Below are positions 36,628 through 51,185 of a stretch of 64,000 bases of DNA, in pieces. The translations under genes were made by a program, and so were the position numbers. Position 1 is the first letter of the stretch; the number at the start of each line of letters is the position of its first letter. Source of the DNA: Methanoculleus receptaculi (GTDB taxonomy: Archaea > Halobacteriota > Methanomicrobia > Methanomicrobiales > Methanoculleaceae); assembly GCF_033472595.1 (NCBI RefSeq), contig NZ_CP137642.1, positions 682,001-746,000 on the forward strand, given 5' to 3'. A model generated the notes under the pieces. That model ran no database searches. It saw only the letters and a program-made list of their open reading frames with translations, and was not told where the DNA came from.

Positions 36628-37189
36628 ATGGACTACCTGGAAGAGTTTCCAGTTCTCTTCATCGATGACGAAGGGCAAGTCAGGGACGCTGGTTGCGGAA
36701 CTATCCCGGTTCAAAGCGCTTTACGACGGCAACAGCCCGATCGAGGAGGTCTTTCCAGACCTGGTGCGCCAGTATCCCGCCAGGTATGCGGGGCTCGGGC
36801 TTGCGGACCTCTGCCGGGAGATGCACGGGTTCCTCCGGGCGGAGTCGATCCCGGTGGTTGTCCGGGACGTCTATTCGAGGCTTCCGGAACCGGTGATGAC
36901 GCCGGCGGAGGCTTACCGCCGCCTTGTGCGTGGAGAGGTGGTGCAGGTGCCTGCGGGCGAGATCGAGGGGAAGACCGTCGCAGTGATGGTCGTCCCCTAC
37001 CCGCTCGGCATCCCGGTCATAATGCCCGGGGAGCGGTGCGGCCAGGAGACACGGGCGGTTGTGGATTACCTCGAGATCCTCCAGGAGTTCGACAACCTCT
37101 TTCCCGGGTTCGAGAACGAGGTGCATGGCGTGGACGTCGTTACGAGGGAGGGGCGCCGGGTCTATTACGCCTACTGTGTTTCGGAGTGA
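36628..37189 (+). pseudogene. Orn/Lys/Arg decarboxylase remnant, internal deletion
   Basis: A short N-terminal piece (MDYLEEFPVLFIDDE, ATG 36628 after AGGAAG) is followed in another frame by a C-terminal domain of about 165 residues (LVAELSRFKALYDGN.. to ..VYYAYCVSE). That domain resembles the C-terminal domain of group III Orn/Lys/Arg decarboxylases (GEVVQVPAGEIEGKTVAVMVVPYPLGIPVIMPGE). The large PLP domain is absent. The gene is disabled by a large internal deletion plus frame loss. Confidence 0.7.
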
Positions 37190-37195
37190 CGGCGG

Positions 37196-37471
37196 TCAAT
37201 CCCGCACGCTGCCGCGGGCGAGCGAGGCGAGGATTCCCGGGGTGCAGAGGGCGGCGAAAGCGAGGAAGATCACGGTCGCGAAGAGGTACGATGAGGCCAC
37301 GAGGCTGAGCGAGACGGCGTCGAGGTCGAACTCTGCTGCTATCGACGGGAGCGCGATGTTCACCGCCGAGCTCATGAACGGGGTGAGGAACGCGGCGAGG
37401 GTGGCGATGATGAGGACAGTCCGGCGCTGGACGGCAACGGGGGCGGGCATGGGGGTGCTTTGACGCGGCAC
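37196..37471 (-). pseudogene. MFS transporter remnant, ends joined
   Basis: Residues 15-68 look like the first spans of an EmrB/QacA-type drug transporter (LAAFLTPFMSSAVNIALPSIAAEF..). The next 20 resemble the last membrane helix and basic tail of the same family (FAALCTPGILASLARGSVRD). About 400 internal residues are missing. It converges on the decarboxylase remnant with a 6-base gap and is the third adjacent gene of this kind. Confidence 0.65.
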
Positions 37472-37799
37472 TTATTTGAGTTTGGGACGGCCGGGGAGTA
37501 AAGGGTTGTGATATTGCGCTCCTCTGGGGGGCGAGGAGGGGCGGCGGCCGGGCGGAGGTCGATGATGTCATCGATCTTCACGGTGCTCACGCCCCGGACG
37601 TCCCGTCCGTTGCACTCACGAATCATCGCAAGTCACCCTTTCGGCGTATCGACCCCTTTCTCTGCGGAGAAGCCGCACAGCAGAGCCCGACGGCTGCTCG
37701 AACTTCTACTCCTGATCCATTGCGTAGCCTCCGCGGCGCAGACCGCATGATTTTCCTCGCCGCGAGAACAGCCTTCCTCCTGTGTCCGTGCTCCCCGCA
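37472..37799. other. Gap before the accessory island
   Basis: About 330 bases. A minus-strand open stretch begins IRECNGRDVRGVSTVKIDD near 37620 and may be a gene fragment; I do not recognise it. No RNA motif is seen. The conserved promoter repeat begins at the right edge. Confidence 0.35.
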
Positions 37800-38145
37800 G
37801 CCGGATCGATCGTCTCACTTTCACAAACAGCCAACGGACATGTAGATGATTGTGAGAGAAATGCTATATAAGCCCGGGTCTATCCTCTTATGCGGAAGCT
37901 CAAAACAGCGTTCACAAAACCGCGGAGGCTCACCCCATCCAACCAAGACCGGGTGAACCCCCCACTGCCCGAAGGCGAAAGAGTTGTTCGCATTCCATGT
38001 ATTTGGGTGTACCTCTTTTTGCCTCCGGGGAGGTTATCGGAGGAAAAGCAAATGAACGGAACCATTGGAATGCGGGCACTCTCCGCGCTCTTCGCCGTGC
38101 TGCTGGTGAGCATGGGTGTTGTGCCGGCAATGGCGTGCGAGCCGG
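37800..38145 (+). repeat. Promoter-leader-signal-peptide cassette, copy A
   Basis: Contains, in order: a conserved upstream block (ACAGCCAACGGACATGTA), a BRE/TATA core (GAGAGAAAT..CTATATAA, TATA 37863-37871), a leader of about 155 bases and codons for a signal peptide starting at 38052. The leader block GCGTTC.CAAAACCGCGGAGG and ACCGGGTGAACCCCC recurs almost unchanged in copy D (48.5-48.8 kb). Shorter or diverged copies are at 41.3, 44.0 and 50.8 kb. Confidence 0.75.
38011..38054 (+). promoter_or_regulatory. Possible Shine-Dalgarno-masking hairpin, copy A
   Basis: TTTTTGCCTCC about 30 bases before the start can pair with GGAGGAAAAG, the ribosome-binding site of the ATG at 38052: five GC-rich pairs, one mismatch, then four A-T/G-T pairs. 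The shorter alternative CCTC/GAGG pairing next to it would free the site. The same arrangement is present before 48746. Confidence 0.5.
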
Positions 38146-38814
38146 GGGACGCCTTGCGGCGATGCCAGAGAAGACCTGCAGAAAACCGATCTGTCAGGCT
38201 TGGAGAAGTACGAAGCTGTCGCTTCCGCTCTGAACTTGGATGATGTGAAAAAGCTCTCGGACATCTCGCGCTCTGAAGACTTTAGTATGATCGTCGACAA
38301 CGCGAAAGCGTTCTCCTTCGAGAAGGAACTCGAAGACGGATCAATCAAGCATGCAACGGCTGTGGTACTGCCCATCGAATCTGTTATTGAAAAAGACGGT
38401 TTGGTCCAGACATCGAACATCGTTGCAGTCTGGGACGGTGACAATGCTCGGGTACTCAAGTACACATGCATTTTCCAGGAAAAATCCCTGTACACACTCG
38501 ATTTCAGCATAATCGATGTCAATGGAGATGTGGTTAAGGAAACCATTATCGATGAGGGCTCATTCATCAAGGAAACGTCGGAGCATCTCTTTGCAACAGA
38601 GGAGGACCCGGATTACTGGCAAAGAGTTGTTTACTGTATCACCTTGAATTGTGCTTGTGCGCTTGCTGGAATCCCTTGTCCTGGAATATCGGTCTGTGAA
38701 ATTTGTATTGTGTTGTTACAACCATGTGTTGTTTTTATGACTCCATATACCTGCGCCCCTGCCGTAGCTTGCTTAGGAGTGGAAATAGCCGCATGTATGT
38801 ACGACAGCCTGTAA
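38052..38814 (+). CDS. Halocin C8-like cysteine-rich secreted precursor (frameshifted)
   Basis: The first frame encodes a Sec signal peptide (MNGTIGMRALSALFAVLLVS..VPAMA-C). A +1 shift near 38140-38160 leads to the mature part (REDLQKTDLSGLEKYEAV..), an acidic domain of about 140 residues. The last 60 residues are hydrophobic with exactly ten Cys, spaced 4-1-6-5-2-6-8-5-7. The segment ACLGVEIAAC resembles SCLGFVEIVC of halocin C8, an archaeal peptide antibiotic with ten Cys cut from a precursor whose N-part gives immunity. I infer an archaeocin precursor. There is no twin-Arg signal, unlike halocin C8. Whether the shift is real or a sequence error is open. Confidence 0.6.
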
Positions 38815-38848
38815 ATCAGATAGATACCTCTTTTTTGTGGAGTGTGCT

Positions 38849-39520
38849 ATGACAACACAGCAACGCTACCAATTTGTAGTGGTTATCGTATTACTCGGAC
38901 TCGTTTGTTCCGGTTGTTTGGAAACAGGCGCTGATACGGATACGCTTCTGCAAAATACCATAGAAAAGCAGGCGAATGCCGAGAGCCTGGCATACATCGA
39001 AGAGCTTACTTTATATCTAGGGAATGAAACGAAGACAGTTGAATATGATGTACTTTTAAAGAAACCGGACAAATTTCGAAGAATCGAGAAGAGCGGCTCA
39101 TTTATACGCTCGGAGATTACTTCCAATGGAGATATAGTCTGGATCTATGATCCTGAGAAAAATACAGTGTTCATTAGAAATCTGACATCATCAGAGAAAC
39201 TACCAGAACCTGCGATCTATGCATTGTTGAATGATAATATCTTTGAAAAATACATGGTAACAGGTCAAGAAATGGAGTCGAATAACCCAACTCCGGCTTA
39301 TAAGATAGAACTGGCTTCTCACGAGTCGGATAACGAAGATACGAGAGAGTATCTGCTGTGGATCGATCCCGATGGTCTCATCCCGTTGAAGCTGGAGAGT
39401 TGGGACAAGGGCAATCCGGTGCTAACCCTGGAATATCGAGATTATTCGATAAATTGCACAACAAATGATAGTGATTTCACCTTTACGATTCCTGATGATG
39501 CATCGGTGATGTACATATGA
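38849..39520 (+). CDS. Lipoprotein, LolA-like fold
   Basis: 223 residues from the ATG at 38849, with GGAG about 8 bases upstream. The signal peptide ends in a lipobox (LVCSGC, Cys near residue 25). The mature part is beta-rich (VEYDVLLKKPDKFRRIEKSG, DIVWIYDPEKNTVFIRN, LLWIDPDGLIPLKLESWDKG), the pattern of archaeal LolA/LppX-like lipoproteins that hold lipophilic molecules. It follows the halocin-like gene and overlaps the next start (ATGA). A role in binding or neutralising the hydrophobic peptide is possible, but this is inference. Confidence 0.7.
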   Translation: MTTQQRYQFVVVIVLLGLVCSGCLETGADTDTLLQNTIEKQANAESLAYIEELTLYLGNETKTVEYDVLLKKPDKFRRIEKSGSFIRSEITSNGDIVWIYDPEKNTVFIRNLTSSEKLPEPAIYALLNDNIFEKYMVTGQEMESNNPTPAYKIELASHESDNEDTREYLLWIDPDGLIPLKLESWDKGNPVLTLEYRDYSINCTTNDSDFTFTIPDDASVMYI

Positions 39521-40137
39521 AGCTCGACCCTATCATCAAGGAGGCACTCTGGCGCTCGGTTGTAGTCTTTGTCGTGTCGATTATCATCGTCGCTATCATC
39601 ATCGCGACAGCTCCCCTCCCGATACCTGCGTTCTTGTTGTTTCCCCTAGCATTGACGATCGCTGCAGTATATTTCTGTCTTATGGTGTGGTATGGACGAA
39701 AGGCAGCCGGACGATCAAAACCCCATGCATATCCTCCGTCATCCTCTCCGGTTAGCGGATACAGGGAAGGAGAAAAGATGCAGAGGCGAGCCGTTGTCGA
39801 GAAGGTGACCGACGCCGTCCTTGCCGTCGTGATCTTCCTGATCTATCTCTATGCGTCCCGTGCATCCTCCATCAACCAGGTCTTCTGGCTCCCTGTCCTT
39901 GTCATCATCGGCCTGCTCCTGACGCGCATCGTCTTCATCGATGGCGGCGAGCGCCGCATCACCCTTGTACGATCGGTTGTCTTCTATCTCATAGTCGCCG
40001 CGATCGTTGTTCTGCGCTACCTGGCACTGGGATATCCCGTTGTCCCCCTCCTCCAGGCAATCGCGCTTGTCGGCATCGTTGCTTTTCCCATCCTCTATAT
40101 CTGGGAACGACGACGCACACCGAAGGGAACGGATTGA
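39517..40137 (+). CDS. Multi-pass membrane protein, unknown
   Basis: 206 residues with about six hydrophobic segments in two groups (about residues 15-55 and 95-190), separated by a Pro/Ser-rich polar linker (KPHAYPPSSSPVSGYREGEK). A second possible start is MQRRAVVEK at residue 88. It is translationally coupled to the lipoprotein gene and precedes the thioredoxin-CcdA gene. I do not recognise a family. Its place after a bacteriocin-like gene makes immunity or export a reasonable guess. Confidence 0.65.
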   Translation: MKLDPIIKEALWRSVVVFVVSIIIVAIIIATAPLPIPAFLLFPLALTIAAVYFCLMVWYGRKAAGRSKPHAYPPSSSPVSGYREGEKMQRRAVVEKVTDAVLAVVIFLIYLYASRASSINQVFWLPVLVIIGLLLTRIVFIDGGERRITLVRSVVFYLIVAAIVVLRYLALGYPVVPLLQAIALVGIVAFPILYIWERRRTPKGTD

Positions 40138-40204
40138 TGGCTGAGGGATGGCCTGTGGAGTGATCGATGTGCCTTGGCACATCTCTGCAAATGGCGGAGG
40201 GCTC

Positions 40205-41209
40205 ATGATCGTAAAAGCGGTGCAGGTACTTGCCGTTCTGCTCATCGCGTGCACTCTGTGCATTCCTGCAGCCGCAGCCTCAACGATCTCCCTCGAATAT
40301 TACCACATGGACCGGTGTCCGGACTGCAAACTGACTGATCCGCTGATCGCGGACCTGGAAGGCTCCTACGACGGCGCCCCCGCGATCGAATGGATCGATG
40401 TCGAAACCGTGGACGGATGGGAGCGATGGAACGCATACGAATTTCTCGAAGTCCCGGCCGTAGTCATAAACGGCGCCATTAAAATTCCCAAAGAGGAGAT
40501 CACCGAAAAGAACCTCAGGGTGGCGATCGAGCAATCCCTTGCCGGTGCTGAGCCGCCGGAGAACTCCCCGCCGATTAACTGGGACATCCCGTTTGCATTC
40601 TCCCTGGGCCTCTTCTCCGGTTTCTCGCCCTGCCTGATGGCAATCCTCGGATTCATCCTGGTGTACGTCACCGGGTCGGGCACGGGGTTGAGAAGCAGTC
40701 TCCTGAACTCTGTAATATTCGGCCTGGGGCTGGTCGCCGCGTATATCATCCTGGGGTGCTGCTTCCTGCTGGCGGGGATGTCCCTCGGCGGTTTTGGCCC
40801 TTACCTCGCCATAGCAGCAGGGATAATCACGATACTCGCCGGGGTGAACCTACTCGGGTTGATACGGCTCCCGGTCTCCACTGACAACTATGTTAAGTCA
40901 TCCATACAGAAGCATGCGACCACCTTTGTCGGGTTGTTCATACTGGGCATGATATTTTCGATCGTCAAGGCCCCGTGCGCCGCACCGATGATCCTCGTCC
41001 TGCTGAGCAGAATCCTGATCGACGGCACCGTGCAGGATTTATCGCTCCTGCTGGTCTTCGGAGCCGGGGTGCTCACGCCGTTTCTCGGCGTCGGAGTACT
41101 CGGGGGATATGCCTCGTCGAGCAGGATACGGGAATACAGGGATGTAATTCGAGCCGGCAGCGGGATTCTTTTGATAGGATTCGGGGTCTGGATGCTCTTC
41201 TGGGGATAA
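40205..41209 (+). CDS. Thioredoxin-like domain fused to CcdA-type membrane protein
   Basis: 334 residues from the ATG at 40205, with GGAGG just upstream. A signal peptide (about 1-25) is followed by a thioredoxin-like domain with a CPDC active site (YYHMDRCPDCKLTDPL) and cis-Pro region EVPAVV. Six membrane spans follow (about 125-334), with the CcdA cysteines in SGFSPCLMAILGF and KAPCAAPMIL. CcdA/DsbD proteins carry electrons across the membrane for disulfide exchange. Next to a ten-Cys secreted peptide it may fold that product. A truncated duplicate is at 48.1 kb. Confidence 0.85.
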   Translation: MIVKAVQVLAVLLIACTLCIPAAAASTISLEYYHMDRCPDCKLTDPLIADLEGSYDGAPAIEWIDVETVDGWERWNAYEFLEVPAVVINGAIKIPKEEITEKNLRVAIEQSLAGAEPPENSPPINWDIPFAFSLGLFSGFSPCLMAILGFILVYVTGSGTGLRSSLLNSVIFGLGLVAAYIILGCCFLLAGMSLGGFGPYLAIAAGIITILAGVNLLGLIRLPVSTDNYVKSSIQKHATTFVGLFILGMIFSIVKAPCAAPMILVLLSRILIDGTVQDLSLLLVFGAGVLTPFLGVGVLGGYASSSRIREYRDVIRAGSGILLIGFGVWMLFWG

Positions 41210-41278
41210 ATGGAGCGCCGGATCCGGCGATGTCCGTCCGGATCGGTCAGCACCCGGTTTGTTAGTCTGCCTCGCCGC

Positions 41279-41294
41279 AAGAAAGACCTTTCTT
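41279..41294 (+). terminator. Hairpin after the CcdA gene
   Basis: AAGAAAG-AC-CTTTCTT is a perfect short inverted repeat, present again at 48459-48474 after the duplicate CcdA fragment. There is no following T-run, so a terminator role is weak. Confidence 0.3.
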
Positions 41295-41309
41295 CTCCGT
41301 CCCCTTCTT

Positions 41310-41385
41310 TCAGAGCAGGTTGATCGCCTCACTTTTACGAACAGCCAGCGGACGTGTAAAGGATTGTGAGAGAAATTATATAACT
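41310..41385 (+). promoter_or_regulatory. Island promoter repeat, copy B
   Basis: Block CAGAGCAGGTTGATCGCCTC, then ACAGCCAGCGGACGTGTAAAGG and GAGAGAAAT with TATA ATTATATAA at 41375-41383. The leader to the ATG at 41454 is only about 45 bases. It matches copies A and D upstream of the TATA box but lacks their long leader and signal-peptide part. Confidence 0.7.
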
Positions 41386-41453
41386 CCTTAAGCCCAGCCC
41401 CCCTATGCGGATGCCCGAAGCGCGTTCGCAAAAACGTTAACGAAGGAACTGCA

Positions 41454-42050
41454 ATGAAATTACGTATTTACTCATACATCGCAACGATAATCCTCGTCGT
41501 CCTTGCCAGCGCCGGGTGCCTAGAACCCACCGAAACCGGCCCGGTCGTAAATACCACCCTGGAACCCACACCGGAGCCCTGCGAGACATGCACCGTCCCC
41601 GAGGGCTTCTGCGGCCCACCCGGGGTCTGCCCGGGGGAGCCGGTGAACGGCGTCTACGCCTTCACGGACAAGGATGTCTACCGGATCGGGGAGGTGGTGG
41701 AGTTCGGCATCGTCAACTGCGGCGATGAGCCGGTGGAATTCGGCAGCCCACGCCCATGGTGGATTGACAGATGGGTCATGAACGAATCAGGATGCATGCC
41801 GGGCAATTGCACCGACGGCACGTGGGAGCCCATAGCCGATGGGGGATATGCTCCGACCGTGATGTGCTTCCTCGACCCCAGAGAGAACTGGACAGTGCAG
41901 TGGAATACTACAAACTGGTGGGATACTGCAGAGGCGAGCGGAAGTCCTGTATGTCCATATGATATTCGGATTCACGACGACCCCCTTACTCCTGGGACGT
42001 ACCGGGTGCGATATGGGCCCAACTTTACCAAGGAGTTCGAGTTTGTGTGA
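41454..42050 (+). CDS. Cys-rich lipoprotein 1 of a tandem pair
   Basis: 198 residues. Lipobox ASAGC (Cys near residue 22), then a Thr/Pro-rich spacer (TTLEPTPEPCETC) and a Cys-rich segment. An Ig-like beta domain follows (VYAFTDKDVYRIGEVVEFGIVNCGDEPVEF). Several N-x-S/T sequons (NES, NCT, NWT, NTT, NFT) suit AglB glycosylation. The gene sits under promoter repeat B. Function unknown. Residues about 56-120 are identical at DNA level to the next gene. Confidence 0.75.
   Translation: MKLRIYSYIATIILVVLASAGCLEPTETGPVVNTTLEPTPEPCETCTVPEGFCGPPGVCPGEPVNGVYAFTDKDVYRIGEVVEFGIVNCGDEPVEFGSPRPWWIDRWVMNESGCMPGNCTDGTWEPIADGGYAPTVMCFLDPRENWTVQWNTTNWWDTAEASGSPVCPYDIRIHDDPLTPGTYRVRYGPNFTKEFEFV
41619..41814 (+). 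repeat. 196-base perfect repeat, first copy
   Basis: This segment reappears without a mismatch at 42272-42467 in the neighbouring lipoprotein gene, while the flanks of both genes have diverged. Confidence 0.85.
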
Positions 42051-42109
42051 CGCGGAATAACCCCGGCCACCGGAGGCACAAGGATGTGCGCACAAATGGA
42101 GAAACCGCA

Positions 42110-42673
42110 ATGAAACCACAAATTCACCCATGCATCGCGATGATAACTCTCATTGCCGTCTTCGCGACCGCCGGGTGCCTGGAACCAGCCAGCACCGCCG
42201 TAAACGCCACCCCAGAACCGACACCGGAACCCTGCGAAACGTGCACCGTCCCCGAAGACTTTTGCGGCCCGCCCGGGGTCTGCCCGGGGGAGCCGGTGAA
42301 CGGCGTCTACGCCTTCACGGACAAGGATGTCTACCGGATCGGGGAGGTGGTGGAGTTCGGCATCGTCAACTGCGGCGATGAGCCGGTGGAATTCGGCAGC
42401 CCACGCCCATGGTGGATTGACAGATGGGTCATGAACGAATCAGGATGCATGCCGGGCAATTGCACCGGCGGCACGTGGGAGCTCGTCAGCAATGCGGGAT
42501 GTGCTCCGACCGTGGTGTGCTTCCTCGACCCCGGAGAGAACTGGACGGTGCGTTGGGATACAGGGGCGAACCGAAGTGAGACCATATACATGATGGTGGC
42601 GGACAACCTCACTCCCGGGACACACTGCATCTGGTACGAAGGCGGCTATGCCAAGGAGTTCGAGTTCGTGTGA
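42110..42673 (+). CDS. Cys-rich lipoprotein 2 of a tandem pair
   Basis: 187 residues from the ATG at 42110 (MKPQIHPCIAMITLIAVFATAGC), GGAGA upstream, lipobox ATAGC. It has the same architecture as the preceding gene: Pro-rich spacer, Cys motif, Ig-like domain and sequons. The ends of the two proteins differ clearly but the centre is identical, pointing to recent duplication or gene conversion. It lies 59 bases downstream and is probably co-transcribed. Confidence 0.75.
   Translation: MKPQIHPCIAMITLIAVFATAGCLEPASTAVNATPEPTPEPCETCTVPEDFCGPPGVCPGEPVNGVYAFTDKDVYRIGEVVEFGIVNCGDEPVEFGSPRPWWIDRWVMNESGCMPGNCTGGTWELVSNAGCAPTVVCFLDPGENWTVRWDTGANRSETIYMMVADNLTPGTHCIWYEGGYAKEFEFV
42272..42467 (+). repeat. 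196-base perfect repeat, second copy
   Basis: Identical to 41619-41814; offset 653 bases. Confidence 0.85.
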
Positions 42674-42959
42674 GCGTAACGGCAGCACAGGCATGCTGCG
42701 GCTTCCGTGTGCGGATGCGCTGCGGCAGCAGCGCAGACGGGGCGCTCCACGCGAAAAAAAGGGTAGTGTCCCGGAATATAACTGAAAAAGTTTTTCATAG
42801 AATCTGACCGTATTACGTTGAGCAATACCCTGCGTTCATACCAAAAGCTCACATTGGGGAGTTTTTCCTACTATCAGTTGTTTCTTGGGGCACTGCTGGC
42901 ACCGTTGCCGATGGTGGACAATAGTGTACCCTGTACGGCGGCGCCGTGATAAGGGTTTC
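42674..42959. other. Gap with an insertion-sequence end remnant
   Basis: No gene is seen. GTAGTGTCCCGGAATATAACT near 42762 resembles the terminal repeat of the IS481-type element that starts at 42977 and may be a relic of an earlier related insertion. A GC-rich palindromic patch lies near 42690-42730. Confidence 0.4.
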
Positions 42960-42976
42960 ATCTCCAGAAAAGGGAT

Positions 42977-43955
42977 GTAGTATCCCGAAATCATTTGACA
43001 CCAGACTTATATGTGGGTGTGAGCAAGCTCTCCGATCGGGATATCCGAGGTATCATTCGTCAGTGGAAGAGAGGGCGGCCTGTTCGTGACCTTGCGGACT
43101 ATCATCACGTGAGCCGGCAACGGATCTACCAGATTATCGCAGCGTACCGGCAGACGGGGTGTTATCCGTATCCACAAACGCCAGGAAGAAAGCCCGCTCA
43201 GATCCCGCACGAGACTGAAACTCTCGTCCTGGCCGCTCATGACCAGTATTCTCTCGGCCCCACACATCTCGAGAAGAAGATCGAAGAAGTGGATGGGATG
43301 CATATTCCCCACAATACGATTTACCGGATCCTGCTGGAGCATGGACGGGTGGAGGTCTGCATGAAGAAGCGGAAGCAGCGGAAATGGGTGCGCTATGAAC
43401 GTGACCACGCAATGTCACTCTGGCAGGGAGACTGGAAGATGATCTCATTGGATGGCCAGAACCGATGGCTCATCGCATTCATGGACGATTCCTCCCGGCT
43501 CATCACCTGTTATGGGGTCTTCGACCGACCCACGACTCACTTCACCATGCAGATCTTGGAACAAGGATTCCGGGAATACGGAACGCCCCTGGAAATCCTC
43601 ACGGACAACGGTTCACAGTTTGTTTCAGCCAGGAACCCAAAAACGGCAGATCATACCTTTCGAAAATTCCTTGAGTCCCATGGGATTCGGCATATCAGAG
43701 CCCGGGTGAATCATCCCCAGACCAACGGCAAGATTGAGAGGTTCTTTGGCGAGGTCGAGCGAAGAGCACATAGATTCGGATCCGTGGATGCAGTGGTGCG
43801 GTGGCATAACGAGATCAAGCCGCATAGCAGTCTCGACTATGACGAACCTGCCCATGCGTTCTGGTATCGCCTGCCGCCGGAACGGATCCTTGGGTACGCA
43901 CAGAGGTGGATGGATGCGCAAGAGTGATATATGTAAAATTAATTCGGGATACCAC
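42977..43955 (+). mobile_element. IS481-family insertion sequence
   Basis: About 979 bases. The left terminal repeat GTAGTATCCCGAAATCATT is matched inverted at the right end (AATTAATTCGGGATACCAC), with a few mismatches. It carries one intact transposase and is flanked by a perfect 17-base duplication. Confidence 0.85.
42995..43927 (+). CDS. IS481-family DDE transposase
   Basis: Up to 310 residues. An N-terminal helix-turn-helix (LSDRDIRGIIRQWKRGRPVRDLADYHHVSRQRIYQII) is followed by an rve integrase core: Asp in WKMISLDGQ, Asp in LTDNGSQF and Glu in TNGKIERFFGEVE. The frame opens with TTG at 42995; GTG at 43013 or 43019 are other possible starts. It appears complete. Confidence 0.9.
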   Translation: MTPDLYVGVSKLSDRDIRGIIRQWKRGRPVRDLADYHHVSRQRIYQIIAAYRQTGCYPYPQTPGRKPAQIPHETETLVLAAHDQYSLGPTHLEKKIEEVDGMHIPHNTIYRILLEHGRVEVCMKKRKQRKWVRYERDHAMSLWQGDWKMISLDGQNRWLIAFMDDSSRLITCYGVFDRPTTHFTMQILEQGFREYGTPLEILTDNGSQFVSARNPKTADHTFRKFLESHGIRHIRARVNHPQTNGKIERFFGEVERRAHRFGSVDAVVRWHNEIKPHSSLDYDEPAHAFWYRLPPERILGYAQRWMDAQE

Positions 43956-43995
43956 ATCTCCAGAAAAGGGATCAAACCCCTTACTTTTGGCAGAA

Positions 43996-44300
43996 ACCTG
44001 CCGACGTGTAAAGAAATTGGACAGAATTTCTAAATAACTCTGTGTTCAAGCCATTGTGTGGATGCTTCAGAGCGGCGTCCGCAAAAGATCTGGGGCTACC
44101 CATCCCTGGTTGACGACCGGATGACGCGCCCCGCGTGCCCGGAGGCAAAGGGAACGTACGCGTTCTGCGTACTTAAGGTTGTGCCTCTTTTGCCTCCGGG
44201 GAGAGAAACTGAAGGAAAAGTAAATGAACAGAAACATTGGAATGCGGGCGCTCTCCGTGCTCCTGGCAATGCTGCAGGTGAGTGTCGCGATGGTGCCGGC
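43996..44300 (+). repeat. Promoter-leader-signal-peptide cassette, copy C (diverged)
   Basis: CGACGTGTAAAG and a TATA-like TTCTAAATAA (44028-44037) are followed by a leader of about 165 bases. CTCTTTTGCCTCCGGGG recurs, then AAGGAAAAG and a signal peptide (MNRNIGMRALSVLLAML) close to copies A and D. The middle of the leader has diverged and the Shine-Dalgarno pairing is weaker. Confidence 0.65.
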
Positions 44301-45057
44301 AGTGGCTGCACAGAGTGAAAAGCGCTTTGAAGAGGAATTGCTGCAAAACATGGGTATAAAAGTAAACAGCATTGATACAGAATTGTGTGACTACAAAACT
44401 GTTGGAGACACGGTTTTCTTTAATGGGAATGTCAAATTCGATGCAGAATCTGGAGTAAGCGGGAAATTTGAGCGAATTTACGCAGACCAGCAAGTTAGTG
44501 GCTATTATTCCAAAAATGGCTCTTACCATATCGAATCCGTTGGTACAAACTACCGTTCAGCAATAGATGCGCAAGTGATTTCAGAAAGCTCCGATGCTAT
44601 TACACTCAAAATTGAGCAAGTGGTGGTTAAGAACGGAGTTGTAAAAGTGTCAAGCGATATAGTGACCCTCCCGAAAACCGAGCGTCCTGATATCAATGAT
44701 TTTGGTGGTGTAAGCAGTATTGGCCTAACAAGCGATAAAACAAAGATTGACTTACCGAGTATGGCCCCGCCAGGATCGACTTTAGTATTCAATGACGTAC
44801 AATATTTCTATCTTGTGTACGGCACTGCTGCTCTTGCAGTGGTTGCTGCTTATTTCGGTGTGTTACCCGCAGTAATTCTCGGTTTGGCAGCTGTAGCTCT
44901 TGAAGCTGCAGCTGATTACGGCGATTTCGATACAGAGGACTGTTACCTTGATGTCTGGCTTGTTCCCGAACCGCATCCCTCTGCCCCTATCCTCATAGAG
45001 GTTGACTATATATATTTAAACACCTTTTTTTCTTTATGTGATGCTTATGATTCGTAA
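44224..45057 (+). CDS. Secreted protein with hydrophobic C-terminal segment
   Basis: 277 residues, in frame throughout. The signal peptide (about 1-27, VPAVAAQ) belongs to the shared cassette family. Residues about 28-190 are beta-rich. Residues 200-240 form a long Ala/Val/Gly-rich hydrophobic stretch (YGTAALAVVAAYFGVLPAVILGLAAVALEAA), then an acidic tail with YLDVWLVPEP. A related C-terminal stretch is in the pseudogene at 45374. It resembles a leader-domain-plus-hydrophobic-peptide precursor, but no known family is recognised. Confidence 0.6.
   Translation: MNRNIGMRALSVLLAMLQVSVAMVPAVAAQSEKRFEEELLQNMGIKVNSIDTELCDYKTVGDTVFFNGNVKFDAESGVSGKFERIYADQQVSGYYSKNGSYHIESVGTNYRSAIDAQVISESSDAITLKIEQVVVKNGVVKVSSDIVTLPKTERPDINDFGGVSSIGLTSDKTKIDLPSMAPPGSTLVFNDVQYFYLVYGTAALAVVAAYFGVLPAVILGLAAVALEAAADYGDFDTEDCYLDVWLVPEPHPSAPILIEVDYIYLNTFFSLCDAYDS
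45006..45020 (+). promoter_or_regulatory. Strong TATA box inside the end of the 44224 gene
   Basis: TATATATTTAAA lies about 25-30 bases upstream of the next start codon, giving the small membrane protein its own promoter and nearly leaderless mRNA. Confidence 0.55.
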
Positions 45058-45238
45058 TTATCTGCCGTTATTATGGAAATTGGTATTCACTCTTGCAGTA
45101 GTTCTTCTCATCGCAAACATTTATGAGACTATACAAAGCGGTCATTATGACTCTCTTAGGCAGTGGGTGTTTTTTGCCCTTTTTTTCACGAGCCTCATCA
45201 TTCGATTCATCAGTGAAAAAACCGCAAAAAATACTTGA
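45047..45238 (+). CDS. Small two-TM membrane protein, candidate immunity
   Basis: 63 residues from the ATG at 45047 (MIRNYLPLLWKLVF); the ATG at 45041 would add two. Two hydrophobic helices (about residues 7-27 and 38-56) with a short polar loop and a basic tail (EKTAKNT). It overlaps the end of the preceding secreted-protein gene and has its own TATA box. Small two-span proteins after bacteriocin genes are often immunity factors; that is inference here. Confidence 0.55.
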   Translation: MIRNYLPLLWKLVFTLAVVLLIANIYETIQSGHYDSLRQWVFFALFFTSLIIRFISEKTAKNT

Positions 45239-45373
45239 TTTTCCCCGAGGTCATCCCGATACGCCCCTGGTTAAAATGAAGCGGTGCATGCTTGGGACAA
45301 AACCGAGCCGGAAGCCCATAACGAACCCCCTGTGATAGAAATGACTGCAGAAATACAGAAAAAAGGAAAAATC

Positions 45374-45694
45374 ATGGGTATCGTATCTTCACATACACTT
45401 TGGAACTTACGATATGGATAATTTGATCGCACCAGGGGTTTTTTAGCAATCGAAGGTCTAGGAGCGGCACTGGCCGTAATATTGGGACTAGCTACTCTCC
45501 CCGCACTAGCCTTGGCCACGGCGATTGCAGGAGCGTTAATCTTCGGCGCCTGGTACTACAAGAATCTAGATGGAAGTCTGGACATGTATTTCAGTAATCT
45601 GACTCTTGCACTCATTCCTGTGTACCTGGCGATGCCGGGACCACAACCGATTGTCGTGAGACTGGGATCGCACGATGTGCCGGTGCTTATATAA
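45374..45694 (+). pseudogene. Remnant of a second hydrophobic secreted protein
   Basis: A start with AAAGGA upstream (ATG 45374) gives only 15 residues. Downstream, YDMDNLIAPGVF and then, after a shift in the T-run near 45443, LAIEGLGAALAVILGLATLPALALATAIAGALIFGAWYYKNLDGS can be read to 45694. The hydrophobic stretch followed by LDMYFSN resembles the C-terminal part of the 44224 protein. It is a truncated, shifted paralogue. Confidence 0.5.
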
Positions 45695-45727
45695 CCAATA
45701 TGAGCCCATTTTTTGGGGTTGAATTCC

Positions 45728-45931
45728 ATGAACCGAAAAAAAATAATTATTGGATTCACGATCTTAGGTTTTATTATATTGCAGTTTGTTTTCTATAGGC
45801 TCATAGGTATCTGGGAAGAAGGCGCGAAACACGGTTTTTCCCAGGTCACGTTCATACTTGGAGTGGTCCTGGGCGTAGCATACGCCTACTTAGCATATAT
45901 TGTTGACACACGCCTTCTCGACGATCCGTAG
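45728..45931 (+). CDS. Small two-TM membrane protein, second copy in position
   Basis: 67 residues (MNRKKIIIGFTILGFIILQFVFY..), two hydrophobic helices with a charged loop (IWEEGAKHG). It follows the hydrophobic-protein remnant exactly as the 45047 gene follows 44224, so the pairing is repeated even though the sequences are not obviously alike. Confidence 0.5.
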   Translation: MNRKKIIIGFTILGFIILQFVFYRLIGIWEEGAKHGFSQVTFILGVVLGVAYAYLAYIVDTRLLDDP

Positions 45932-45966
45932 AACTATTTTATTACACCGAATGGAAAACGGCTCAA

Positions 45967-46494
45967 ATGAAGACAGATTCAAACGAGAGACCGAGCAGGG
46001 CAAGGGGAGCAGTACTCGGGCTACTATTGGCAATCACATGGATCGTTCTTATTCTATTGCTCGTTGAACGCATCTTCTTCCCTCATCAGGGCGGCGGCAT
46101 TCAAAATCCCGTCATCAACTGGCTTTATATCGGTCCCATGGTGTTCCTCGTCTGCGCCGGGAACTACCTGATGTACCAGCGGAAAGTAGGAGGTACCGAA
46201 GCCGCTCGTGGCGCAGCTGAACTTAAAATTCTCTTCTTTGGCGTTTTGCTCTGGTTCCCCGTCACACTGGCGCTGTTTCTCATGCAGTGGGGCGGTCACG
46301 GGCAACTGGGTTCGATGGTAGGGCTCCTGACCATGCTCATTATGCTCGCTATTTACACGTTGTGGGAGAGACGGCAGTACGGAGACATTCTCCTGAAAGC
46401 GCAGAGCAGGACAATTCACGTTAAGGTAGCGGAAACGCGAGATCACTATCTGTCCCCGGTTTTTCTCTCTCACACCGGGGTAGTGCTCCATTAA
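45967..46494 (+). CDS. Four-TM membrane protein, unknown
   Basis: 175 residues with four hydrophobic segments (about 14-36, 48-64, 82-102, 108-128) and a polar tail. No family recognised. It is expressed in the same direction just after the small membrane protein. The last residues (SPVFLSHTGVVLH) read into sequence that looks like an insertion-sequence boundary, so the true C-terminus may be lost. Confidence 0.55.
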   Translation: MKTDSNERPSRARGAVLGLLLAITWIVLILLLVERIFFPHQGGGIQNPVINWLYIGPMVFLVCAGNYLMYQRKVGGTEAARGAAELKILFFGVLLWFPVTLALFLMQWGGHGQLGSMVGLLTMLIMLAIYTLWERRQYGDILLKAQSRTIHVKVAETRDHYLSPVFLSHTGVVLH

Positions 46495-46570
46495 ATCACT
46501 GGTATCACATTTCTGGTGTCTCCACATATTATTCACATACTTTTATTTACTATCAGGAATAGTATTGCCC

Positions 46571-46732
46571 ATGTCCCGTGCCCGCAGTTCCGGCACGATG
46601 ACCTGCCAGAATTCTGCATGCCGGTTCTTCCAGCTTGAGGAAGGGAAAGATCTCATTAAGAATGGGAGGAATTGTGCTGGGAATCAGCAGTATTTCTGTA
46701 AACACTGCCAGACGTTGTCAACGGCGGCGTAA
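46571..46732 (+). pseudogene. Truncated IS transposase, N-terminal zinc-ribbon part
   Basis: 53 residues (MSRARSSGTMTCQNSACRFF..). The pattern CQNSAC..GNQQYFCKHCQT resembles the zinc ribbon of IS1/InsA-like transposases. It stops after ATLS-like residues just before the ISH3-type element, which probably inserted into it or replaced the rest. Confidence 0.5.
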
Positions 46733-46752
46733 CTTTGTGCACTTTCGGCGGT

Positions 46753-48074
46753 CTCAGTACTTCTCTAATTTTCAAGTAGGCGTATCCTGTGCCAAATCTG
46801 GAAACCAGCACAAAAGCGAAAGATCTATATGGGTTGCAGGCATCCCCTCATGCCTTTTGCCCAAAGGAAGAAGACAACCTGCAAGAAGATTAGCACCCTG
46901 AAATCGAAAGAATGTTGTGCTTGTGCGGTCACGGCACTGAATCAGCACCTGACCATTCCAATCCAGGGACGGCTCACCCAAACCGACCTGTTTCAGGCGC
47001 TGATTGGCATGGCCGCGATGAACCAGTCGATTCACTCGATCACCGGGCTTTTAGAGCACGTACCCTGTGAGACGTCCTTCCGATATCACCTGAAGAAACT
47101 CGACATGGACGAGTTGGAGCAGAAGAGCACTGCTATCCTCACCCATTTCGTACACCACGTCCTGAAGCCCGGGAACGCGTATCAGTTCGCGATCGACTAC
47201 ACTAACGACCCCTATTACGGGGAGACTACCGATGAGAACAAACCCTTTATCATCCGGAGCAAGCGCAAATAGTCGACGAACGAGTTCTATTCCTACGTCA
47301 CCCTGTACGTGACCACCACAGATCGGCAGATGACGCTGGCGATGTACCCGGTGCGCCAGGGGATCTCCAAGGTCGAGTATATCGCCCGCTGCCTCGACCG
47401 GATCGCCGAGATCGGCCTTGAGATCGAAGCCCTCTGCCTGGATCGGGAGTTCTACACCAAGAAGGTCTTCGGGTTTCTGACCCGGGTGCAGGTGCCGTTC
47501 ATCGTCTCGGTCAGGAAACACGGTAAACGGATGAAAGAATTACTCGAAGGAACGCAGTCCCGGTATGCCGAATACCGGATGAAAGCCAAACCGCCGCTTC
47601 TCCTGACGATCGCGATCGCAGTCAAGTATGCGAAAGGCAAACGAGGAAAGCACGGTGTCGAGAACCTGGGTTACGTCGTCGGTAGCCTTGCGTGGAACCC
47701 GCTTCGGGTGCACCAGACCTACCGATCCCGGTTCTCGATCGAATCGTCCTACCGGATGCGCAACCAGGTGAAACCCCGGACAAGCACGAAGAATCCGGTG
47801 ATCCGCTATATCTATGCCATTATTTCCTTCCTCCTCAAGAACGTTTGGATCGCTCTTTTGTGGATGCATTTCTCCCCGGTGAAGCGAGGGCCCAGAACCA
47901 TCGACATGCGCGCTTTCCGGTTCGACTACTTCATTGTCATAATCTGGGAAGCGATTCGGGCATCGATGAGGATGGTGAAAGGAATTCCCATCCTACGGAA
48001 TCCGGTTTAGAGAAAAGGGGGTGAGAAGACGTTGAATAAAACGAGAGGGAGGATGAATTTAGCGAAGTACTGAG
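46753..48074 (+). mobile_element. ISH3-like insertion sequence
   Basis: Terminal inverted repeats CTCAGTACTTCTCTAATTT (46753) and AATTTAGCGAAGTACTGAG (ending 48074) enclose one interrupted transposase gene. It separates an IS1-like remnant from a truncated CcdA copy. No clear target duplication was found. Confidence 0.75.
46850..48010 (+). pseudogene. ISH3/IS4-like transposase with in-frame TAG
   Basis: The frame runs from the ATG at 46850 (MPFAQRKKTT) and meets TAG at 47270-47272 after IIRSKRK. It continues in the same frame (STNEFYSYVTLYVTTTDRQM..) to the TAA at 48010. Catalytic features are Asp in FAIDYTNDPYYG, Asp in LCLDREFYTKKV and Glu in RFSIESSYRMRNQ. Apart from the one stop it looks complete, about 386 residues. 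TAG ends several normal genes here, so readthrough is unlikely. Confidence 0.75.
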
Positions 48075-48385
48075 TCCGCTATACGGAAACATTCGGCCAA
48101 TCTGGCCGGGTTGTTCTTTCTGGGTATGCTGTTTCGATCGTCAAGGCTCCGTGCGCCGCACCGATGATCCTTATCCTGCTGAGCAAAATCCTGGTTGACG
48201 GCACGGTACAGGACCTCCCGCTCTTACTGGTCTTTGGAGCCGGAGTGCTCACGCCGTTTCTCGGCGTCGGGGTCATCGGTGGATACGCCTCGTCGAGCAG
48301 GATACGGGAATACAGGGATCTCATTCGAGCGTGAAGCGGGATTCTTTTGATAGGATTCGGGGTCTGGATGCTCTTCTGGGGATAG
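48072..48385 (+). pseudogene. C-terminal fragment of a duplicated CcdA-type gene
   Basis: The sequence matches the last 100 residues of the 40205-41209 gene (SIVKAPCAAPMILILLSKIL.., VFGAGVLTPFLGVGVIGGYASSSRIREYRD.., LLIGFGVWMLFWG). It has a shift near 48128, a TGA near 48332 and its 5' end removed at the ISH3 right border. The downstream intergenic DNA is duplicated too. Confidence 0.8.
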
Positions 48386-48458
48386 ATGGAGCACCGGATC
48401 CGGTGGTGCCCGTCCATCCAGATCAGTCGGGACCCGGTTTGTCAGCCTGCCTCGCCGC

Positions 48459-48840
48459 AAGAAAGACCTTTCTTCTCCGTCCCCTTCCTTCAGAGCAGGT
48501 TGATCGCCTCACGTTTGCGAACAGCCGACGGACGTGTAGAGGGATGTGACAGAAAACATAAATGGCTTGACGCCTATGTCCTTGTGCGGATGCCCAAAAT
48601 GCGTTCGCAAAACCGCGGAGGCTCACCTCATCCGTCCAAGACCGGGTGAACCCCCCACTGCCCGAAGGCAATAAGTAACCTTGCATTCCATGAATTTAAA
48701 ATTACGCTTCTTTTGCCTCCGGGGACGTTATAGGAGGAAAAGCAAATGAACGGAACCATTGGAATGCGGGCACTCTCCGCGCTGCTCGCCGTGCTGTTGG
48801 TGAGCGCGGGTGTTGTGTCAGTGGTGAGTGCAACGAACAA
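48459..48840 (+). repeat. Promoter-leader-signal-peptide cassette, copy D
   Basis: The hairpin AAGAAAG/CTTTCTT (48459-48474), block CAGAGCAGGTTGATCGCCTC, CGGACGTGTAGAGGG and a TATA-like AACATAAAT (48555-48563) are followed by a leader near-identical to copy A and the signal peptide at 48746. The masking pair CTTTTGCCTCC and GGAGGAAAAG is intact (48711-48743). Confidence 0.75.
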
Positions 48841-50027
48841 CCCCTCAGGCAGAACCCCATAATACAACGTTTCGATTGGTTGATAATGTCCAACCTCCCC
48901 TCTTTGACTGGAGCGGTGTCGAGCCAGCGTCGCCAATGACAGGATCCGACCTAACGACGATCATCCTATCCGAAGCATATGTTACAAAACAGGTAGGACT
49001 GCAATCCCCCGGAATCGTTGAATTATCTCTTCCCTTTTCCGCATTCGGAGAATCGGATTGTTCTGTAGAAAAATCTCCAGACTACCTGATACAGGTAGGA
49101 ATTGCTGAAGATGATCCTGTTATGGTTTTAACAATACCCGATACGATGTTTAGGTCATTGAATGACGATCCTAACCGCATCGACCTGAGTTTTCCGCTTG
49201 AATACTTTTCGCATTACACAGATATCAGTACTTACTATCGACAGCACCCGGAGAACACCGCAGACAACTCTCGATTCAAATTATCAGATAGCGATCTGGA
49301 TGCGATTAATTCACTTGAAGTTAATATCGAACGTGATGTGCAGCCATACCTCTCCAGAGTAAGGTTTATGGCCGATTCAGGAAACGAAATTACATACCTT
49401 ACAGGAAAAATTAGGCCTTATTACTATTCAAATTCCGGAGCTAGATACACGATTTTCCAGGAGAGAGAAATAAATTTAAACCGTTTCGATGCATCAGGGG
49501 AACCCCTTGACACAATTGAAATTGTTGTCGAGTACGAAGACGCCCTTCCCGGAGTGGGGAACATCAAGTTATATCCGGTAGTATATGACGAAGGTTCTCT
49601 GATTTATCCAGGTCCCGACCCGTATATCGACGTATCCAGATCATCCCTCCCTCACGAGTATAATTACTATGTGTCCATCGGTAGTGGTTCTACGTTGGGA
49701 AAATATGAGATCTGGCTCCAGGATACGACAACCGAAGAATGGCTGGGGTACTATTATTACGATGACGATAGCGATCCGAGTCAATTCATCAAGCGAAATG
49801 TAGGGTCATCGGAGTTATTCCTTTGGGACAGCTCGACCTTTTCCTTTGATGCACGCACATCGCCGATAATGGATGAATGGTGCAGGCAGGGAAGTACCTG
49901 GAACAGACCAGCAGACGTATTCTCATACTACGACCGACAATACGATTCTTATGTGAGCACGTCGTATTCAACCGGGTCGGGTATAATCTATACACACACC
50001 TACTGTAGTGGAAGTGGTTCATCTTAG
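48746..50027 (+). CDS. Large secreted protein behind the shared signal peptide (frameshifted)
   Basis: The signal peptide frame (MNGTIGMRALSALLAVLLVS..VVSA) stops after SGRTP at 48861. A +1 shift near 48830-48850 gives about 390 further residues (AEPHNTTFRLVDNVQPPLFDWSG..). The mature protein is acidic, Tyr/Ser-rich and likely beta-structured (YVSIGSGSTLGKYEIWLQDTTTEEWLGYYYYDDD), with only a few Cys, two of them in the last 50 residues. No family recognised. The signal peptide matches that of the halocin-like gene almost exactly, but the mature parts are unrelated. Confidence 0.6.
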
Positions 50028-50064
50028 ATTATATCTATTTTTTAATTTACGGAGGAAAAATCAC

Positions 50065-50646
50065 GTGAAGCCTCACTATATCATGGTAATACTCTCGTTT
50101 ATTCTCCTCACCGCGGGGTGCATCGAGCCCATGACCACCGATCCCGCAGAGGTTACGCCGTCGCCCATAACCGAACTTCCCCCCGATAATGCACCGTCAC
50201 TCCGGGATTCAGCCTTCATCAGGATCGAAGCGTGGGAGGACCCCGCCGAATACACGAGTTTCTCCCCGCCGTCATACATCCCCAAGGAGTATACTCTTTA
50301 CGGCCTCCTGATATCCACCGCCTGGAACGAGTCCTACGGCCACTACACGACGATCGGCGAGACCCTGCGCTACGCACGCAACGACACGATGCAGAACGCA
50401 TCGTGGACCACCGATATGACGCTTCTCGACGTCACCTGGAGCAAATACGGGTATAACCCCTATGCAAAAGATCGGATTATTCACAATGAGCCGGAACCCG
50501 TTGACATAAACGGGTATACAGGGCTGATCTACGAGACCGAATCGGACCGGCTGATCGTCTGGACAGCGGCCGAGAACGCTACGTATCACGTGCGTGGGTC
50601 TCTCGACCGCGAAGAGTTGATCCGGGTGGCGCGGTCTATTCCCTGA
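50065..50646 (+). CDS. Lipoprotein, DUF4367-like
   Basis: 193 residues from the GTG at 50065, with GGAGGA about 8 bases upstream. Lipobox LLTAGC (Cys near residue 18), then a Pro-rich spacer. The C-terminal part (DINGYTGLIYETESDRLIVWTAAENATYHVRGSLDREELIRVARSI) resembles DUF4367, a domain often found on membrane-anchored or secreted proteins with unknown role. It is 37 bases after the large secreted protein and is probably co-transcribed. Confidence 0.7.
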   Translation: MKPHYIMVILSFILLTAGCIEPMTTDPAEVTPSPITELPPDNAPSLRDSAFIRIEAWEDPAEYTSFSPPSYIPKEYTLYGLLISTAWNESYGHYTTIGETLRYARNDTMQNASWTTDMTLLDVTWSKYGYNPYAKDRIIHNEPEPVDINGYTGLIYETESDRLIVWTAAENATYHVRGSLDREELIRVARSIP

Positions 50647-50825
50647 AAACCACCACCATCTCATTTTACAGGGAGGGGAGTCGGACGACAACTCCGTCTT
50701 ACCGTAGGCCACAAGCCCAGCCACCACGATCACCGGCGGCAAGAAAACAGTATTCGGAGCCGGGAACGAACTCGGCGCCCTCTCCCACCGGCTCGTCGGC
50801 CAACACCGCCGATAAAACAACCCTT

Positions 50826-50905
50826 CTTCTCTCCCTCCGTCCTCCAGAGCAGGATCGAGCGCTGTGCTTTTGTGAATGACCGGCAAACGTGTAAAGAGAT
50901 CGGAT
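50826..50905 (+). repeat. Island promoter repeat, copy E (degenerate)
   Basis: CAGAGCAGGATCGAGCGC.., GAATGACCGGCAAACGTGTAAAGAGAT recalls copies B and D, but no TATA box or gene follows. It marks the right edge of the island. The surrounding 50647-50978 has no other feature. Confidence 0.5.
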
Positions 50906-50978
50906 TCTCGGTATGTACCTGGCATGGGACTGGAGTGCAACATGGAGAAAGCCTCACGCGAACGCAGGGCAGGAGTAA

Positions 50979-51185
50979 GGTATCCAGCGAGGTAATCTCT
51001 CCTCAAACCCCATTTACCCAGACGTTGCTCGCTGTATCGGAGAGTTCGCCCCAAAACTCCTCAACCGGGAGGAGCACGCCCAATCATACCTGATGGTGCT
51101 CACGCTCCGGACGGCACATCTGAAGAATCGGTTGGACCCGGTCTTGTCCCGGCAGAAGACCCGGGCCAACCCCGAAAAAGAGTAG
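50979..51185 (+). pseudogene. Unrecognised C-terminal gene fragment
   Basis: 68 codons open after a TAA: ..NPIYPDVARCIGEFAPKLLNREEHAQSYLMVLTLRTAHLKNRLDPVLSRQKTR... It has amphipathic-helix character but no start codon at its beginning, no ribosome site and no family that I know. Its TAG abuts the stop of the opposing flavoprotein gene. Confidence 0.3.

Follow-up and report, generated by a model that had tools for sequence, protein, structure and literature searches.

What is the function of the short gene array at positions 44224–46494 of this stretch of the Methanoculleus receptaculi genome, where genes for secreted proteins alternate with genes for small membrane proteins? The stretch, hereafter the window, comprises 64,000 nucleotides (nt) of the assembly GCF_033472595.1 (contig NZ_CP137642.1, positions 682,001–746,000 of the forward strand); the genes of the array, its leader and its promoter-like signal all lie on the plus strand. 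A first-pass annotation of the window had read the array as repeated pairs resembling toxins and their immunity proteins. Overall, the comparison with related genomes suggests that the pairs are probably polymorphic membrane toxins of archaea accompanied by membrane immunity proteins; this reading is well supported for the second pair (TOX2 with TM2b) and moderately supported for the first (TOX1 at 44224 with TM2a at 45047).

Architecture of the array

The first secreted protein, TOX1 (44224..45057, 277 amino acids, aa), consists of a signal peptide, a beta-rich N-domain, a hydrophobic hairpin and a polar tail. The hydrophobic part is made of two segments at approximately residues 190–229 (the fast-evolving helical hairpin region, 44791..44910) and is followed by a tail of about 35 residues. 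The hydrophobic C-terminal stretch noticed in the first-pass annotation does exist, but it is internal to the C-terminal third of the protein and not located at its extreme end. Next comes TM2a (45047..45238, 63 aa, two transmembrane, TM, segments), the proposed immunity protein of TOX1, and then a remnant of a four-TM gene, TM4a (45341..45385), retaining its first 15 or so codons, with blastn homology to the relatives G016 and G028 ceasing at 45385. The adjoining remnant of a second secreted protein, TOX2 (45386..45694), represents its C-terminal part, the reading from 45387 being that of TOX2 from about residue 118 onward; one frameshift precedes the hairpin, and the hairpin and tail are still readable at 45449–45691. 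The array ends with TM2b (45728..45931, 67 aa, two TM segments), the proposed immunity protein of TOX2, and TM4b (45967..46494, 175 aa, four TM segments, the homologous part covering residues 1–138), the third gene of the unit.

The open reading frames (ORFs) listed initially at 44224, 45047, 45374, 45728 and 45967 are all present, and the translations confirm two TM segments in the products of 45047 and 45728 and four in that of 45967. The ORF at 45374, taken for a decayed relative of TOX1, is indeed decayed, but its ATG belongs to the four-TM gene and not to the start of the second toxin: it is a fusion scar, in which the four-TM gene cut at 45385 is joined to the C-terminal half of TOX2. 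The true gene order is TOX1, two-TM gene, truncated four-TM gene, truncated TOX2, two-TM gene and four-TM gene, the plain reading of which is that two tandem units, each encoding a secreted, a two-TM and a four-TM protein, were fused via a deletion. Only TOX1/TM2a looks intact in M. receptaculi, while TOX2 is a remnant whose two-TM and four-TM partners were left behind.

As proposed at the outset, the two units stand head to tail in the same order with different sequences. TM4a is homologous to TM4b (tblastn 4.7e-7), and no homology is detectable between TM2a and TM2b, the best blastp E value of TM2a to a TM2b relative being 0.33. The homology of TOX1 and TOX2 was considered as well and is not claimed: it is undetectable by comparison of the C-terminal profiles (P = 0.24) or of the mature profiles (P = 0.084 over 19 columns), and the tblastn match between the two is limited to the signal peptide and some 20 residues beyond it. 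The G+C content of the region (43–47%) is lower than that of most of the window. Transposase genes flank the region: an IS481-type gene at 42995–43927 and a second one, recognized by eye only, at 46829–48010, which is split into two ORFs and had no family match.

Recurrence and divergence of the pairs

The association of the membrane partner with the hairpin was assessed by reading ORFs from the stretches retrieved for 33 loci. A partner was scored where an ORF of 45–160 aa that encodes two or more hydrophobic segments started between 60 nt before and 300 nt past the stop codon. By this rule, a small membrane ORF lies downstream of 18 of the 23 hairpin-bearing genes versus none of the 13 hairpin-less homologues (Fisher test, 7.4e-6, a value which, like the Mantel values below, overstates the independence of the loci owing to close relatives and shared genomes, i.e., G348 twice, G425 three times and G573 twice); nor does one follow any of 13 further secreted proteins that share this leader and come from the genus of the window. 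The five misses comprise three homologous small ORFs with the second segment below the threshold (L133, L134, L154) and two decayed loci (L155, L122); in G547 and G548, the partner has 137–141 aa and more TM segments. Since the hairpin-less homologues, devoid of hairpin and signal peptide, keep the regions on either side of the hairpin, it is the hairpin, and not the remainder of the protein, that the membrane partner accompanies. The sorting by hairpin was not blind, because the translations that were read also displayed the downstream ORFs. The homologues without a hairpin and a signal peptide (L138, L140, L141, L148, L149, L153, L156–L162) come from several genera and are possibly cytosolic.

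When 392 genomes of the phylum were searched with a profile of the TOX2 C-terminus, 15 gave a match at E ≤ 0.01; in a scan of named genomes, the profile pointed to the Methanoregulaceae metagenome-assembled genome (MAG) UBA11384, Methanogenium cariaci and one Methanoregula MAG. The intact TOX2 of UBA11384 possesses a signal peptide, an N-domain, a hairpin and a tail with the motif DGSMDVYIS, and the gene that comes after it encodes a TM2b homologue. Besides Methanoregulaceae, a Methanosarcinaceae-like family (a family label that we infer) has intact TOX2 genes, and TM2b is homologous to the two-TM gene adjoining intact TOX2 in UBA11384 (7e-10), G425 (5.5e-8) and G433 (4e-7). Another profile, A5, was built from ten TOX2 relatives excluding the remnant in the window. 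In the family to which G425 belongs, it matched 58 of 111 genomes at E ≤ 0.001, most of the matches covering little beyond the signal peptide; among the matches listed, 18 places in 14 genomes of this family span most of the profile. At E ≤ 1e-12, A5 matched 15 of the 392 phylum genomes, with the remnant in the window among them (E = 2.4e-18). Counting this remnant, several copies are decayed. As to a mobile carrier, no plasmid match was obtained for the one TOX2 searched, and IMG/VR contained no relative.

In the genus comparison (35 genomes, M. receptaculi included), full-length TOX1 is present in three genomes, that of the window, G028 (86% identical) and G016 (81–82%). The comparison with other Methanoculleus-like genomes, recommended in the first-pass annotation, bore out the pairing: the two-TM gene directly follows TOX1 in all three, with 76–78% identity of its product. 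Behind this pair, TM4a is truncated at different points in the three genomes (after about 15 codons in the window and after about 28 and 49 codons in the others), and an intact copy exists in G001. The remaining TOX1 matches in the genus cover the signal peptide or little more, which is common to many unrelated secreted proteins. The non-synonymous divergence (dN) of the TOX1 hairpin amounts to 0.29 (window–G016), 0.28 (G028–G016) and 0.15 (window–G028) versus about 0.05 in the N-domain; the respective Fisher values for the non-synonymous differences in the hairpin versus the N-domain are 5.9e-7, 1.8e-7 and 0.0095. As to TM4b, a protein 66% identical to it is encoded in G033 behind a third, broken secreted-protein gene of the hairpin type.

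The units also diverge in a linked manner. The tandem copies in G348 are 98% identical in the N-domain versus 59% in the hairpin, 74% in the tail and 64% in the two-TM protein, and their synonymous divergence is 0.035 for the N-domain but rises to 0.53 for the hairpin and 0.71 for the tail; between genomes (G348b vs. G425b), the identities are 87%, 94%, 91% and 93%, respectively. The contrast between the tandem and the between-genome comparison, expressed as nucleotide differences relative to the N-domain, yields Fisher values of 9e-12 for the hairpin with the tail and 2.4e-9 for the two-TM gene. This contrast implies that the C-terminal part and the partner gene moved or diverged together, whereas the N-domain was kept or homogenised.

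The partial Mantel test was run on 16 units, leaving out G547 and G548, whose partner has additional TM segments, the frameshifted copies G425:3135531 and G501, as well as G254 and Methanogenium cariaci. Given the N-domain, the hairpin correlates with the two-TM protein at r = 0.48 (none of 5000 permutations as high) and the tail at r = 0.55; in the dereplicated set of 13 units, the partial r for the tail is still 0.54 (0 of 5000 as high). The N-terminal part is conserved and the C-terminal part variable, as in polymorphic toxins, and the downstream candidate immunity gene varies with the toxin part, more weakly for the hairpin alone after dereplication. A retained N-domain with a hairpin and a two-TM partner diverging together is, as far as the sequences tell, a toxin–immunity signature.

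Expression signals, leaders and neighbouring genes

A TATA-box-like run, TATATATTTAA, is located at 45009..45019 within the end of TOX1, 28–38 nt before the start of TM2a; it occurs once in the 64 kb, the mean expected from shuffles being 0.00. TATA-like runs occupy the same place in both TOX1 orthologues and are not seen upstream of the two-TM gene in G001 and G033, where it is not preceded by a TOX1 homologue. The strong internal TATA box of the first-pass annotation is, hence, real and unique in the window, and the separate expression of TM2a ascribed to it could take place. Most of the Methanosarcinaceae-like units (L126–L135, L154, L164) display a conserved stem-loop and, behind it, a T run between the secreted-protein and two-TM genes. 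In 11 of 16 sequences (G433, G425a and UBA11384 being left out for lack of a stem by eye and G573b and G425b for their longer spacers), 96.6% of the cells pair, and compensatory changes on both sides are found in three of eight pairs, a number reached in 3 of 500 shuffles. The stem-loop could set the ratio of the secreted and two-TM products; in the window, this role could fall to the TATA box in the case of TM2a.

The leader and signal peptide of TOX1 (44189..44310, the signal peptide occupying 44224–44310) belong to a DNA repeat family, D3, with further copies at 38017–38123 and 48711–48817. The copies are 72–93% identical to the reference copy, the mature proteins behind them look unrelated, and the signal peptide recurs on many different secreted proteins in the genus; the whole looks like an exchangeable export module. 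In a set comprising 38007–38051, 48701–48745, L007–L034 and L121–L165, a leader hairpin pairing the Shine–Dalgarno sequence with an upstream CCTC motif was seen in 34 of the 39 leaders with a recognizable site (19.4 expected from shuffles); three more leaders, including that of 44224, have no such site. As a part of the toxin system, this leader hairpin was dropped, since it precedes many unrelated secreted proteins.

A second candidate toxin operon at 38052–41206 encodes a Cys-rich secreted protein, a LolA-like lipoprotein, a 6-TM protein and a thioredoxin/DsbD-like protein. The Cys-rich hydrophobic C-terminus of the secreted protein, which we take by eye to resemble halocin C8, belongs to a gene broken by a frameshift near its start. 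The same four-gene order occurs in G034 and G029, and in G008 the contig ends within the second gene. The 3' part of the DsbD-like gene with the spacer is duplicated (40956–41380 and 48132–48560, 88–89% identity); the latter, headless copy precedes a secreted-protein gene at 48746. No Rfam match was found in 37000–51000.

Toxin–immunity reading and its rivals

On the evidence above, we consider it moderately likely that the units are secreted membrane-active toxins with dedicated membrane immunity proteins, used between archaea. A more specific proposal, to which we give a slightly less than even chance, is that they make up a family of polymorphic membrane toxins in methanogens for which no model has existed so far and in which the hairpin, the tail and the two-TM gene form an exchangeable cassette behind a conserved N-domain, distributed in Methanomicrobiales and the Methanosarcinaceae-like family.

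In the mechanism that we infer, comprising export, killing, protection, the mode of membrane damage and the target range, the signal peptide would export a proprotein whose beta-rich N-domain and tail would fold extracellularly around the hydrophobic helical hairpin. The signal peptide and proprotein architecture expected of an archaeocin is recognizable by hydropathy and alignment. The hairpin, either released by a protease outside the cell or displayed by the folded protein, would insert itself into the membrane of a susceptible neighbouring cell and disrupt it; the two-TM protein encoded by the next gene would reside in the membrane of the producer and block the matching hairpin, and the four-TM protein may be an accessory or a second immunity factor. 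New specificities would arise when the segment of hairpin, tail and two-TM gene is replaced or diverges while the N-domain stays constant. The hairpin is taken as the active element because it varies, because the two-TM gene goes with it and because a membrane-embedded partner could recognize it. Release by an extracellular protease is plausible, since a subtilase-like ORF (named by eye) directly follows the two-TM gene in one TOX2 unit and haloarchaeal halocin precursors are matured by extracellular serine proteases, halolysins, according to the available part of PMC12893001.

Such a system would have several counterparts. SdpC of Bacillus subtilis, propionicin F and closticin 574 are proproteins that contain a hydrophobic peptide internally, close to the C-terminus, and SdpI is a membrane immunity protein; the pairs resemble them in the position of the hydrophobic segment and the proposed membrane immunity. 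They differ from SdpC/SdpI in their archaeal origin, in a partner with two rather than multiple TM segments and in the lack of Pfam or NCBIfam similarity: SdpC was not matched in these scans, and SdpI (PF13630) was reached only below the cut-off, by a truncated 4-TM relative (E = 0.012). In pore-forming colicins, a hydrophobic helical hairpin kills and is recognized by a membrane immunity protein, much as proposed here; unlike in colicins, no translocation or receptor domains are seen, and the proteins are of a different size and archaeal. In halocins C8 and H4, the active part is freed from a larger secreted proprotein, and the C8 precursor also yields the immunity part (available parts of PMC11509114 and PMC12893001). 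The proposed release from a secreted archaeal precursor would be similar, but immunity would be conferred by a separate downstream two-TM gene and the active part would be a hydrophobic hairpin with a tail behind it; TOX1, TOX2 and the Cys-rich neighbour matched no halocin model in Pfam or NCBIfam, where the inclusion of such a model is unchecked. Polymorphic toxins and the VARTIG proteins of Thermococcales likewise combine a conserved N-terminal part, a variable C-terminal part and an adjacently encoded membrane protein, as far as the available part of PMC8416519 goes, but the proteins considered here are small (approximately 210–280 aa) and carry a hydrophobic hairpin in place of a nuclease or immunoglobulin domain. 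No paper describing these pairs was found by title or abstract, the main review of archaeal toxins, which may mention them, being outside the survey.

A number of findings weigh against the toxin–immunity reading. Scans of Pfam, NCBIfam, PADLOC and PDB sequences yielded no fitting family for the pair proteins, i.e., no known toxin fold or family, and the hydrophobic hairpin alone was seen where a toxin domain might be recognized; PADLOC gave no defence-system match for seven proteins, apart from one weak hit (E = 0.035) of the Cys-rich neighbouring protein of G029. The structure prediction advised for the pairs was carried out for TOX1 and TOX2 alone, and both models are of low confidence and serve solely for the rough order of strands and helices: the single-sequence model of TOX1 (pLDDT, predicted local distance difference test, 38.5) has helices at residues 198–210 and 215–230 and a beta-rich stretch, and that of TOX2 (UBA11384 and one relative) reached a pLDDT of 46.5 and a predicted template modelling score of 0.43. 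Of the 740 Foldseek matches at E ≤ 10, none reached E ≤ 0.001. As profile comparison detects no homology between TOX1 and TOX2, it is their architecture on which the joint treatment of the two is based. After dereplication, the partial r between hairpin and two-TM protein is 0.24, with 367 of 5000 permutations as high, which is not significant. In the three TOX1 genomes, TM2a is constrained (dN 0.10–0.13, synonymous divergence, dS, 0.44–0.58, dN/dS approximately 0.22–0.23) and does not evolve faster than expected.

The conservation of the small proteins without a secreted partner, regarded by the first-pass annotation as fatal to its proposal, was observed for TM2a and partly for TM2b. An 83%-identical TM2a orphan in G001 is preceded by a 6-TM protein and not by TOX1, and TM2a paralogues adjoin a Yip1-like (Yip1-domain) protein in 10 of 11 loci. 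Relatives of TM2b (E ≤ 0.1) occur in six other genomes of the genus without a TOX2 match at E ≤ 0.01, one of them, G024, having a weak TOX2 C-terminal match (E = 0.048). In known systems, immunity genes often occur as orphans; hence, the orphan two-TM genes, which may be orphan immunity genes or indicate another role of the partner, weaken the toxin–immunity idea but do not kill it. In its favour stand the recurrence of the pair in two archaeal orders, the absence of the partner after hairpin-less homologues and the linked divergence.

Another explanation, unlikely but the best of the rivals, is an obligate membrane complex at the cell surface, where the secreted protein is anchored by its hairpin and the two-TM protein acts as a structural, assembly or signalling partner. 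The adjacency and the linked divergence of both TM parts would be expected in this case as well, no known toxin domain was found, and a hydrophobic hairpin in a Sec substrate would tend to stay in the membrane. However, tandem near-identical copies differing mainly in hairpin, tail and partner fit conflict better than a housekeeping function, as do the decay of several copies, the fast evolution of the TOX1 hairpin and a patchy spread (TOX1 profile matches in 7 of 232 genomes at E ≤ 0.01, four of them weak; TOX2 in the 15 of 392 at 1e-12). Less probable still, the two-TM and four-TM proteins would be small membrane proteins of a general kind that belong to a Yip1-like cluster and were brought next to fast-evolving secreted proteins by local gene shuffling. 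This agrees with the Yip1 loci, with the close orphan in G001 and with the recurrence of 6-TM, 2-TM and 4-TM genes across genomes in varying orders, but leaves the 18 of 23 versus twice 0 of 13 and the TM2b–TOX2 pairing in two orders unexplained. That the small hydrophobic proteins themselves are toxic and the secreted protein unrelated is very improbable: their size does resemble that of holin-like or type I-like toxins, but orphan two-TM genes are intact in many genomes and the fast-evolving part is the hairpin of the secreted protein.

Antagonism between archaea is poorly known; in the available part of a 2023 paper, only sulfolobicins and halocins are named as described archaeocins (PMC10105419). 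If the toxin–immunity reading is true, the units would represent an archaeal counterpart of bacteriocin–immunity arrays, in cells with ether-lipid membranes unlike those of bacteria, and many small secreted and membrane proteins without a family model would be explained. Methanogens of two orders would then carry toxin–immunity pairs directly testable in the genetically tractable Methanosarcina, and the natural variant pairs, with the same N-domain and a different hairpin and partner, would constitute a ready-made specificity experiment.

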